Positions 27,700-57,677 of a stretch of DNA of 64,000 nt are shown piece by piece. Both the position numbers and the translations under genes were made by a program. Each line of letters starts with the position of its first letter. The first letter of the stretch is position 1. The notes under the pieces were generated by a model, which saw only the letters and a list, made by a program, of their open reading frames with translations, had not been told where the DNA came from and searched no databases. The stretch is taken from the NCBI GenBank assembly GCA_028693355.1, contig JAQUVM010000001.1, forward strand, positions 30,061 to 94,060, written 5' to 3'. Origin of the DNA: Burkholderiales bacterium. GTDB lineage: Bacteria > Pseudomonadota > Gammaproteobacteria > Burkholderiales > UBA11063.

Positions 27700-29916
27700 A
27701 TGAGTTTAATAAATAAAGTAGTATTAGAAGATATTTTAAATAAAGTTATATCATCAGAAAATAGCGGTGAGATATGCAATAATGATGCTATAAGAGTAAA
27801 ACTTACAACAGATACCAAATACTATAATATTATTTTTAATAATATTCATTTTACTGATATGGGTTTGAGTGATTTATTATCTGGTATTAGCTATAACATT
27901 ATAGCTAAATTAGACTTTGTAAATTCATACCGTTCGATTATTATTAATGAAATTAATGGTAATAAGTTAGACACTGATAAATCCTTAAAAATTCAGGCTA
28001 GTTATTGTCATCATTTACAATTAAATTGCCGTAATTTATCTTTAGAAGAATTAAACTTTATAATTGAGATAATTGATAATCATTTCAATAAAAATATTCA
28101 AGATAAATTGTTAGCAAATGTTTATAATTTATTGGTAAAGCAATTCTCTGGGGCGGATTTCACTTGGTCACATAATGATGAGTCGCGCTGGAGTATTAAC
28201 TCCCCAAAAGGCGTTAAAATTACATATTTTGCAAATCCTCAAAAGGGTATTTGCTATTTAAATTTACAAGGTATTTATATTGCTGAAGACTACAAAGAGT
28301 TTAGTAAAGAATTACAAAGTTTAAATATATTTTCATCAGAAATTATAGAAATAAGTTCCGCATATAATATTCATAATTCAGATATTTCACATATTATTAC
28401 ATTAAAGTTTTTTGTTGAAAACGAGTGGGAAGAAATTAGCATTAATTGGAATAACTCGGGTTTTATCAGCTTAATTTTATCCAACTTGGTAGATGATCTT
28501 TCAAATAATGTTAAAGCCTTAATTACGTATCTTTTATCAAAACACATTAAAACACATCAAAAAATAACTAAACCATTACCGCTTAAGTTTGCATTAATTT
28601 GTGAACTTGGTTTTCCTAGTACATATTTAGCAAGTATTATAGATGATAAATTAGTTAGTTATGGATATGATTCTAACGATATAGTTACCCATAATAATGT
28701 TTCATATGAAGCAATTATTGATAAAACAGAGATTTTTTGTAATTTATCATCGAATGATGATATTTATAAATTACAAAAACTATATGGTGATAAACTTATT
28801 TTGATCGGGTGTGGATTAACTCGCGGGCTTAGCTCTATTTGTAAGACTAGATTAATTCAAGGATTTAATTCTAGGATAAAAAATAGTCAAGATAAGCTTA
28901 CGCAATCACAATATGAAAAAATTTCGCAAGAGTTAGCTAGTTTACAAGGTGAAAATGAAAGTAAACTAGGTGAATTTGAAATGTCATTAAATAAATGTTT
29001 TCATAAAGCTGATTTTTTTATTAATTATGATAGCGACCAAGATGTTATGCTTAGCTGCAAAAAAATGCATAATTCAATCGGGAGGTTTATAGATTTATTA
29101 TTTAATCATAAATTTATAACACCAACTAAAGATGAGTTTGCCATGTATATGGCATTTACTGCGGCTATGCGTTCTGCAGACTTATCTCGTCAAGTGGGGG
29201 CTGTAATCACGGCTTCATCTGGTGATATTATTGCAACAGGTGCAAATGATATTCCTCGGGCTGGTGGTGGTCTTTATTATTCAGAAGTTGATATAAATAA
29301 TGCTATTTATGATAAGCCTCTTGGGCGTGATTATATGCGTGGTTTTGATTCAAATGCAGTTGAGAAATTAAAGATTTTTGATAATATTTATCAAGTATTA
29401 AAAGATAAGTTTAAAGACGGAGTTGATGATAGTGATATTAGGGAGCATTTATTAAAAAGTAAAAATAATGTCCTAAATGATATTACTGAATATGGGCGTG
29501 TGGTTCATGCTGAGATGGAAGCTTTGATGGCATGTGCGCGTAATCAAAGTAGCACTATTGGTGCTAGTTTATACTGTACTACGTATCCATGTCATAACTG
29601 TGCAAAACATATTATTGCTGCTGGAATTAAACGAGTATTGTATATTGAGCCCTATACTAAGAGTAAATCATTACAATTTCACTTTGAAGCAATTAGTAAA
29701 GATGCGGTAAACTCAATTGAAAATAAACTTATGTTAGAATTTTATGATAGTATAGAAGCATCTGGGAAAGTGATATTTGAGAGATTTATTGGCGTTGGCC
29801 CTCGTTTATTCCGTGACTTCTTTTCACGTGATAGTGGTGATAAAAAGCTTAAAGATAAATCTGGTTTTGCTTTAAATAATTGGCAACCACAAGTGATTAA
29901 TTTGTTATGTAAATAG
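27700..29916 (+). CDS. AvcD/DCD-type anti-phage deoxycytidylate deaminase with extended N-terminus
   Basis: C-term MRSADLSRQVGAVITASSGDIIATGANDIPRAGGGLYY...DITEYGRVVHAEMEALMACAR...YCTTYPCHNCAKHIIAAGIKRVLYIEPYTKS: HAE and PCxxC zinc motifs. Confidence 0.87.
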   Translation: MSLINKVVLEDILNKVISSENSGEICNNDAIRVKLTTDTKYYNIIFNNIHFTDMGLSDLLSGISYNIIAKLDFVNSYRSIIINEINGNKLDTDKSLKIQASYCHHLQLNCRNLSLEELNFIIEIIDNHFNKNIQDKLLANVYNLLVKQFSGADFTWSHNDESRWSINSPKGVKITYFANPQKGICYLNLQGIYIAEDYKEFSKELQSLNIFSSEIIEISSAYNIHNSDISHIITLKFFVENEWEEISINWNNSGFISLILSNLVDDLSNNVKALITYLLSKHIKTHQKITKPLPLKFALICELGFPSTYLASIIDDKLVSYGYDSNDIVTHNNVSYEAIIDKTEIFCNLSSNDDIYKLQKLYGDKLILIGCGLTRGLSSICKTRLIQGFNSRIKNSQDKLTQSQYEKISQELASLQGENESKLGEFEMSLNKCFHKADFFINYDSDQDVMLSCKKMHNSIGRFIDLLFNHKFITPTKDEFAMYMAFTAAMRSADLSRQVGAVITASSGDIIATGANDIPRAGGGLYYSEVDINNAIYDKPLGRDYMRGFDSNAVEKLKIFDNIYQVLKDKFKDGVDDSDIREHLLKSKNNVLNDITEYGRVVHAEMEALMACARNQSSTIGASLYCTTYPCHNCAKHIIAAGIKRVLYIEPYTKSKSLQFHFEAISKDAVNSIENKLMLEFYDSIEASGKVIFERFIGVGPRLFRDFFSRDSGDKKLKDKSGFALNNWQPQVINLLCK

Positions 29917-42335: not shown

Positions 42336-43352
42336 TTAATATTGAAATGCTATGCCAGTTGTAGTTGGTATATTATTTAATACTATTCTTTTACATGAGT
42401 CAGTATTTATATTATTATTTTCAACTAAGCATTGAGTATATCCTGCTCCTCCTACTGAGAAATTAACAAAATATGCATAATTCCCAGCAAATGCAATATT
42501 GTGTGGATCATTTGTTAGCGGTAGTGATGTTGTTATACAAGAATTATTATCGATGCCACTTGAGTTTAAGTTACATCTTGTATAACTACCATAATCTGTA
42601 GAATCTGGATCATCGTTGTTTTTATGGGTTAGATTACTGATAAATAAATAATTATTGTAAATAGCTAACCCACTTGCATCATATACGCTCGTTCCATTTG
42701 GTTGAGCATCAAAACATGAGTCAGCATTTATGCCTAATGAATTGACATTACACTGAGTAACACCGTTATTTTCAAAAGAGTTTGTGAAGAATGCTAAATT
42801 CTGATATGTAATTACACCCATTGGATTTACTAATCCGCTTTCGCCATCGTTGCCTATGGTTAAACAAGTCTCTGATTCAATGCCATTCTTATTAACTTTA
42901 CATTGTGTATACGCACCATATCCAATACCATATGGATCAGCATAGTCTGTCATATATGCATATCCATTACTAATAGTAATTGAGCTAGGGTTTAATAATG
43001 CTCCAGGATCATTTGGAGAAACCCCAAAACATGAGTCAGATTCAATACCGCTTGAATTTATGTTACATTGAGTATAACTGTTACCATCGTTATTTAATAT
43101 ATATGCAATATTATTGCTTATAGCTATTGCAACAGGCCAATTTAGGTCTGCATTTTGTGGTGTAACTAATGTACATGTACTAGATTCAATACCATTTGAA
43201 TTTACATTGCATTGTAAATAGCCATTGTTGTCTGGCGCTATAATGTAAGCATATTTTGGCATGGTGGGTGTATTATTTGTATTACTGCCACCGTTACAAC
43301 TAGAAGCTAAAAATGGTATTGCTGCACATAATGTGATTAGAATTTTTCTCAT
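42336..43352 (-). CDS. Lipoprotein with six Cys-paired repeats (propeller-like)
   Basis: Lipobox LASSCNGGSN; repeats LQCNVNSNGIESSTC, TQCNINSSGIESDSC, TQCKVNKNGIESETC, TQCNVNSLGINADSC, TRCNLNSSGIDNNSC, TQCLVENNNINTDSC. Confidence 0.8.
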   Translation of the reverse strand: MRKILITLCAAIPFLASSCNGGSNTNNTPTMPKYAYIIAPDNNGYLQCNVNSNGIESSTCTLVTPQNADLNWPVAIAISNNIAYILNNDGNSYTQCNINSSGIESDSCFGVSPNDPGALLNPSSITISNGYAYMTDYADPYGIGYGAYTQCKVNKNGIESETCLTIGNDGESGLVNPMGVITYQNLAFFTNSFENNGVTQCNVNSLGINADSCFDAQPNGTSVYDASGLAIYNNYLFISNLTHKNNDDPDSTDYGSYTRCNLNSSGIDNNSCITTSLPLTNDPHNIAFAGNYAYFVNFSVGGAGYTQCLVENNNINTDSCKRIVLNNIPTTTGIAFQY

Positions 43353-43436: not shown

Positions 43437-44564
43437 TTATTGAGGTTGAGTTTGGTTAATATTAGCTGCTAACCAATTAGCTATACCATTACTAAAATAT
43501 ATTTTATATGCAAGAGCATTATAACCATATGTTTTTATAATCATATATTTACCATTAGGAGATAATGATGCTTCATCTATAGTTTGCTGTAAACCTAGTT
43601 TCTCAATGATGGCATGTACGCTATATATTTGATTGGTTTGTGGTATAAAAACATATTCTCTTATATCGTTATCGCCCCTGCGATCTTCAACAATAGTAAC
43701 ACCTTCATCAGTAACTATAGTATTTTCTCTTATAAAAAATCCAACTGGTAAATTAATGTTAGCCATGTCCTGTGTTTGAGGATTTACTGAAAATAATTGA
43801 TTATTATCATCATCACCTATTGTATATTGACCATAGATATAATTGCTATTTGAAGATATTGCTACTAATCCACCAGATAGCTCACTTTTATCAAAATTAT
43901 TTATTTCTGAACATTGGTTTTCATGGCAAATAATTGGATAAAAATTTCCATCATCCATAGTAACGCCGACTGATGTTCCATTATTGCTTACACTATATAA
44001 TAATGATTGTTCATTATTAACAATGTTGTTATCTATAATAGTTTTTTCATTTGTTGAGACATTTAGAATTCCTGAAGCAAAATTCTCGCCATTGTTAAAT
44101 GTTATATATATTCCATTTGCTGATAACGAACTAAATGTACCACCAAGAGGGTGTCCAATATTATTCATAACATATCCACCGAATCTATTGCTATGAAAAT
44201 CTGTATATCCTGCAGTTACTATATTATCTGATATTGCAGAGCTGTAAAAGTTATCTATTCCTTCTATTGGATTTGGTAATGTTACAAAATTGGATTTCTG
44301 TTGCCCCCATATATATCCGTGATGTACACAATTATTACCAGATGGAACAAAACCTGTTACTATTCCATTGCTATTGATAGCTGTTGGGTTGCTAACAAGG
44401 TCATCACTATTATTAAAACATTCTTGTATATTGTCTGTATTCATTTGATCTAAGGTTAATGCAGATACAGTAGCGGTATTATTAGAGATGGTTGAATTAC
44501 CATTATTACAACCTGAAGTTAAAAATGGTATTGCTGCACATAATGTGATTAGAATTTTTCTCAT
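43437..44564 (-). CDS. Lipoprotein of unknown function
   Basis: Lipobox LTSGCNNGNS; signal-peptide DNA near-identical to the neighbouring lipoprotein. Confidence 0.75.
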   Translation of the reverse strand: MRKILITLCAAIPFLTSGCNNGNSTISNNTATVSALTLDQMNTDNIQECFNNSDDLVSNPTAINSNGIVTGFVPSGNNCVHHGYIWGQQKSNFVTLPNPIEGIDNFYSSAISDNIVTAGYTDFHSNRFGGYVMNNIGHPLGGTFSSLSANGIYITFNNGENFASGILNVSTNEKTIIDNNIVNNEQSLLYSVSNNGTSVGVTMDDGNFYPIICHENQCSEINNFDKSELSGGLVAISSNSNYIYGQYTIGDDDNNQLFSVNPQTQDMANINLPVGFFIRENTIVTDEGVTIVEDRRGDNDIREYVFIPQTNQIYSVHAIIEKLGLQQTIDEASLSPNGKYMIIKTYGYNALAYKIYFSNGIANWLAANINQTQPQ

Positions 44565-44592
44565 GAGATTACCTTTTAGAATAATTAAATTT

Positions 44593-44607
44593 CCCCCACC
44601 CCCCCCC
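44593..44607 (-). repeat. Poly-G/C tract (5 + 9) upstream of minus-strand lipoprotein
   Basis: + strand CCCCCACCCCCCCCC, 29 bp upstream of the ATG at 44564. Confidence 0.9.
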
Positions 44608-44824
44608 AGAAAAAAGATTGTAATTTTATTTATAATCTTTTATGCGTAAAATAGTGTATTGCATGATTGTAATGTATTTAATTTGGTTTGAGATTATTTA
44701 TACACTTTTAAAAATATATTTAATATTTTGATGTATATTATGTGAGTAATTAATAAATACAATCAATATATTGCGTATAGTGTATATTTTTGCAACATCT
44801 ATCTTGTGTGTCTATTTTATGCTG

Positions 44825-57486: not shown

Positions 57487-57519
57487 AAAATGCTAAGAAA
57501 TTTTCTTAGCATTTTTATT
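57487..57519 (+). terminator. Rho-independent terminator ending the polysaccharide cluster
   Basis: AAATGCTAAGAAATTTTCTTAGCATTTTTATT. Confidence 0.88.
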
Positions 57520-57528
57520 ATTTGATAC

Positions 57529-57677
57529 AATAAATTAAAAACTATTTATCATTAAGTTAAAATGATATCCTTAATTAGATAATCTAAAGTTGCAAATATA
57601 ATGAAAAACTCAACAGTAATCAATGAATTAGAACAAATATTAACCAAACGTATCATGTTTATGGATGGTGCAATGGG
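57529..57677 (+). repeat. Right copy of metH 5' repeat (native metH promoter/start)
   Basis: CATTAAGTTAAAATGATATCCTTAATTAGATAATCTAAAGTTGC...GAATTAGAACAAATATTAACCAAACGTATCATGTTTATG; pairs with 44842-44973. Confidence 0.85.

Follow-up and report, generated by a model that had tools for sequence, protein, structure and literature searches.

On the forward strand of the window (the whole 64,000-nt stretch of DNA that was analysed), positions 44593-44597 are CCCCC, position 44598 is A and positions 44599-44607 are CCCCCCCCC. The complete forward-strand sequence from 44593 to 44607 is CCCCCACCCCCCCCC, and its complement on the strand of the downstream gene is GGGGGGGGGTGGGGG, that is, nine G residues, a T and five more G residues. 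The downstream gene (gene 1) encodes a predicted lipoprotein. The A of its ATG lies at 44564, and 28 nt separate the tract from this start codon. The separating stretch, AAATTTAATTATTCTAAAAGGTAATCTC, contains a Shine-Dalgarno-like AAAGG, and the G tract ends 16 nt upstream of this site. The position and composition of the tract and the gene behind it had been described earlier in a sequence-only reading, and all were correct when the sequence was read again on both strands. The features of the locus are listed in Table 1.

Table 1. Features at the G tract and the two genes downstream of it.
Feature	Position	Strand	Remarks
Best-scoring sigma-70-like promoter (predicted)	44623-44650	-	TTTACG (44650-44645), 16 nt, TAAAAT (44628-44623); consensus match only
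G9-T-G5 tract (5' to 3' on the gene strand)	44593-44607	-	-43 to -29 relative to the ATG
Uninterrupted G9	44599-44607	-	Sole run of at least eight G in its own genome
Shine-Dalgarno-like AAAGG	44572-44576	-	7 nt 5' of the ATG
Gene 1	43437-44564	-	375-aa predicted lipoprotein, MRKILITLCAAIPFLTSGC...
Gene 2	42336-43352	-	338-aa predicted lipoprotein; predicted beta-propeller fold

The product of gene 1 had no match to a Pfam or NCBIfam family. It is 30-35% identical to two paralogues encoded in its own genome (contig C148) and to one protein of the related genome G004. Its N-terminal sequence has a basic n-region, a hydrophobic core and a lipobox with Cys (MRKILITLCAAIPFLTSGC), as expected of a bacterial lipoprotein that is a substrate of signal peptidase II. 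The T at -3 of the lipobox is weak, yet it is permitted by the broad lipobox pattern, and the lipobox Cys is conserved in all four homologues. A structure model of gene 1 computed from the single sequence was too poor for use (mean pLDDT 37). The gene 2 product was modelled as a beta-propeller (pLDDT 76.5, pTM 0.78), with PDB matches to YWTD and other propellers. Gene 2 starts 84 nt downstream of gene 1. Because this gap has no predicted terminator on the gene strand, the two genes probably share one transcript. The lipoproteins may be surface exposed.

From the ATG on, 45 bases of signal-peptide codons (MRKILITLCAAIPFL) are identical in the two genes (43308-43352 and 44520-44564), although genes 1 and 2 belong to unrelated families. 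The first 38 nt of this segment are found at only these two places in the genome. The identity suggests that a signal-peptide segment was copied recently. Elsewhere in the window, the protein encoded at 27700-29916 resembles the NF041025 family of anti-phage dCTP deaminases (E = 1.6e-94, below the curated cut-off).

The best-scoring predicted promoter of gene 1 lies upstream of the tract, and the tract would thus be in the transcribed leader. Predicted promoter matches in this region were no commoner than in shuffled sequence. In porA, opc and fetA of Neisseria, the homopolymeric tract lies between the -35 and -10 elements (PMC2791445). In the ten best-scoring promoter readings of gene 1, the tract never falls in such a spacer, and the sole reading that places it there relies on very weak hexamers (TTTTCT, 18 nt, TTTAAT). 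A spacer switch of the porA/opc/fetA type was therefore rejected for this gene, as no high-scoring promoter reading fits it. The porA and opc promoters had been offered as models in the sequence-only reading, and that part of it was not supported, since the best-scoring predicted promoter is upstream of the tract. A translational switch acting on the coding frame was rejected as well: the tract precedes the ATG, and the frame, which is open across the tract, has no in-frame ATG, GTG or TTG upstream. An RNA hairpin in the leader was also rejected, 189 of 200 shuffled sequences folding at least as well (z = 1.3). Further upstream of gene 1, the intergenic segment 44827-44963 has 70% DNA similarity to about 57517-57672, the region around the start of a methionine synthase gene; this similarity may reflect an AT-rich repeat element.

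The genome to which the window belongs has 2,308,498 bp in 169 contigs and a GC content of about 30%. The window tract is the only run of at least eight G or C in the whole of this genome, and it lies outside any annotated-like gene. The second-longest G/C run in the window is a single C6. G7 occurs at five other loci of the genome, and all five are in-frame glycine codons within ORFs. When Markov models (orders 0-4) were trained on 264 kb of this genome, they predicted 0.04-0.41 runs of at least nine G per genome, so the G9 by itself is only mildly improbable. If bases are independent, the genome should contain about 2e-4 15-mers in which 14 or more positions are G, and the 14-of-15-G block, unlike the G9 alone, is remarkable against chance. 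The earlier statement that the tract is extraordinary in its AT-rich background is thus borne out for the 14-of-15 block but not for the G9 taken alone.

The window species probably shares its genus, in the GTDB sense, with Aquella oligotrophica (Neisseriaceae). The genus Aquella belongs to the Neisseriaceae, and A. oligotrophica P08 comes from tap water and has a complete PacBio genome (PMC6612550). We surveyed 23 genomes of the genus, from which all 26 tracts of at least nine G were fetched, together with the G8 tracts among the matches listed. Most G8 tracts among these matches were glycine codons of ordinary genes and were set aside. A closer match to G15 than the window tract was found at one place only in the 23 genomes, in genome G011, where a contig terminates in 37 consecutive G (C31:17188-17224; L058 2001-2037). 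This run is probably an artefact of two-colour sequencing.

The genome taken as that of A. oligotrophica P08 (G016) consists of one contig with 2,820,660 bp. Its only run of at least eight G is a G9 at C1:2427418-2427426 (L036 2001-2009), 51 nt upstream of the start of a lipoprotein gene (L036 702-1949). The top-scoring predicted promoter of the region, TAGACT/TATTAT with a TG preceding TATTAT, has a 17-nt spacer, and this G9 lies within it. Here too, promoter matches were no commoner than in shuffled sequence. The lipoprotein resembles the product of gene 2 (E = 4e-8, single comparison). By its predicted promoter, the P08 tract is a cleaner porA-like candidate than the window tract. In genome G002 (contig C33), the gene of an Lcl_C lipoprotein has a G9, in frame, among its signal-peptide codons. 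In genome G012, a G9 just past the lipobox interrupts the frame (contig C54; L043 673-681), and a second lipoprotein gene, for a phosphoesterase, is interrupted in its signal peptide by a G8 (L090 2001-2008). The two interruptions in G012 may represent a candidate switch in the off state, or a homopolymer sequencing error in a draft genome. At another locus of the survey, an intergenic G11 (L056 2001-2011) lies 152 nt before a gene similar to the TcdA/TcdB pore-forming domain (Pfam PF12920).

Among the tracts of at least nine G in the 23 genomes, 22 were usable, namely those not near contig ends, and four of these lie at lipoprotein 5' ends: the window tract and those of G016, G002 and G012. 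The G residues are on the sense strand in all four. With a background of 70-100 lipoprotein genes per Mb, called by a simple lipobox rule, 0.15-0.4 of the 22 tracts would be expected at such ends (P about 1.6e-5 to 7e-4). When the genome of the window was left out, P was 4e-4 to 7e-3. These P values serve as a guide only, because the pattern was already known when the test was devised. At the level of the individual genes, the loci fetched for gene 1 homologues had no G or C run of at least five, and the gene 2 family members scanned had none within 160 nt upstream. As neither the homologues nor the paralogues of the two genes have upstream G tracts, the tract is not a conserved trait of these genes.

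Slipped G tracts are on/off switches by which Neisseria varies its surface. Under the PhasomeIt rule, a G or C run of at least nine within 200 bp of an ATG is a candidate for transcriptional phase variation (PMC5953494), and the window tract, with an uninterrupted G9 and 28 nt to the ATG, falls under this rule. Nine is the minimum length usually called mutable for poly-G loci (PMC5953494). In the meningococcus, a different organism from that of the window, homopolymers of at least eight mostly vary in single-colony sequencing (PMC5084427). The proposal that the tract is a candidate phase-variation switch is consistent with this rule, with the membership of the species in the Neisseriaceae and with G9 tracts being commoner than expected at lipoprotein 5' ends of its relatives. 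It is weighed down by the minimum length of the G9, by the T that splits the block, by the homologues without a tract and by the best promoter reading, which places the tract in the leader. On balance, with confidence falling just short of even, we regard the G9-T-G5 tract, which stands at the 5' end of a putative two-gene lipoprotein operon, as a candidate simple-sequence contingency locus.

A transcriptional contingency locus is plausible here. Slippage in the G9 would alter the length of the promoter or leader, and the altered length would in turn change the level of lipoprotein mRNA, in the manner of the uspA1 G tract. That the tract slips, and that slippage alters expression, is an inference. 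The interrupting T suggests that the locus is partly stabilised or decaying, with a low switching rate.

Intergenic DNA is under weak constraint, and the tract could instead be a G-rich part of an intergenic leader that arose by chance or has decayed and plays no part in switching. This is a serious possibility, although we consider it doubtful. The up to 0.4 G9 runs expected per genome, the interrupting T and the homologues without a tract all fit it, but the very low expectation for 14 G in 15 bases, assuming independent bases, does not, and neither do the same arrangement in the sister species and the enrichment of lipoprotein 5' ends for tracts of at least nine G. The tract might also be a fixed element that works without slippage, such as a G-rich leader element, a protein-binding site, or DNA or RNA prone to form a G-quadruplex near the ribosome binding site. 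Its location in the transcribed leader, as placed by the best-scoring promoter, and so close before the Shine-Dalgarno-like site would suit such an element. However, a canonical three-tier quadruplex is impossible in G9TG5, because four runs of GGG joined by loops of 1 nt or more exceed it; the predicted folding is no better than that of shuffled sequences, and the homologues have no conserved counterpart, which makes a fixed element unlikely. A sequencing or assembly artefact, that is, poly-G from two-colour chemistry, is very improbable: such artefacts probably occur in the data set, because 37 G end the G011 contig, but the window tract has an internal T and unique flanks and lies inside its contig of 94 kb, some 19 kb from the nearer end, and for P08 the tract stands in a complete genome obtained by PacBio sequencing (PMC6612550).

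If the window tract is a contingency locus, it could be one of several in the genus. Aquella, as environmental, free-living Neisseriaceae, could carry a small lipoprotein phasome, in which single poly-G tracts stand at the promoter, leader or signal-peptide codons of unrelated lipoprotein genes, with gains and losses that affect different genes from species to species. We put this forward as a speculative extension, and with less confidence than the reading of the single locus. Poly-G phase variation is best known in host-adapted mucosal bacteria. If the proposal is true, the same mechanism would exist in water-dwelling Neisseriaceae and poly-G surface switching would extend beyond host-adapted Neisseria, and the selective pressure might be phages or grazing protists rather than immunity. 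The idea is directly testable, because A. oligotrophica P08, a culturable, non-clinical type strain, has the cleaner example.

Three kinds of known poly-G system can be compared with these loci. Like the intragenic translational switches of the PhasomeIt class (PMC5953494), the tracts of G002 and G012 are G8 to G9 in the first codons of lipoprotein genes; the window tract differs in that it sits before the start codon. Like porA, opc and fetA, gene 1 would encode a cell-envelope protein and has a homopolymeric tract close to its predicted promoter, and its species belongs to the same family, the Neisseriaceae. The A. oligotrophica tract shares the geometry of these genes, its G9 lying between the two elements of a predicted promoter (17-nt spacer), whereas the window tract is downstream of the -10 element in the best predicted promoter reading. 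In uspA1 of Moraxella catarrhalis, the length of an upstream G tract correlates with and sets the mRNA level (PMC7302503). This outer-membrane protein gene has its homopolymeric G tract of 8-12 residues in the 5' region, outside the reading frame, where it acts on the transcript level; the likeness to the window tract lies in this placement. The uspA1 tract varies in length, whereas the window tract is split by a T and stands at an unrelated lipoprotein gene. By the position of the tract relative to the gene, uspA1 is the nearest known arrangement to the window tract, and the latter adds a candidate to an already known kind of locus.
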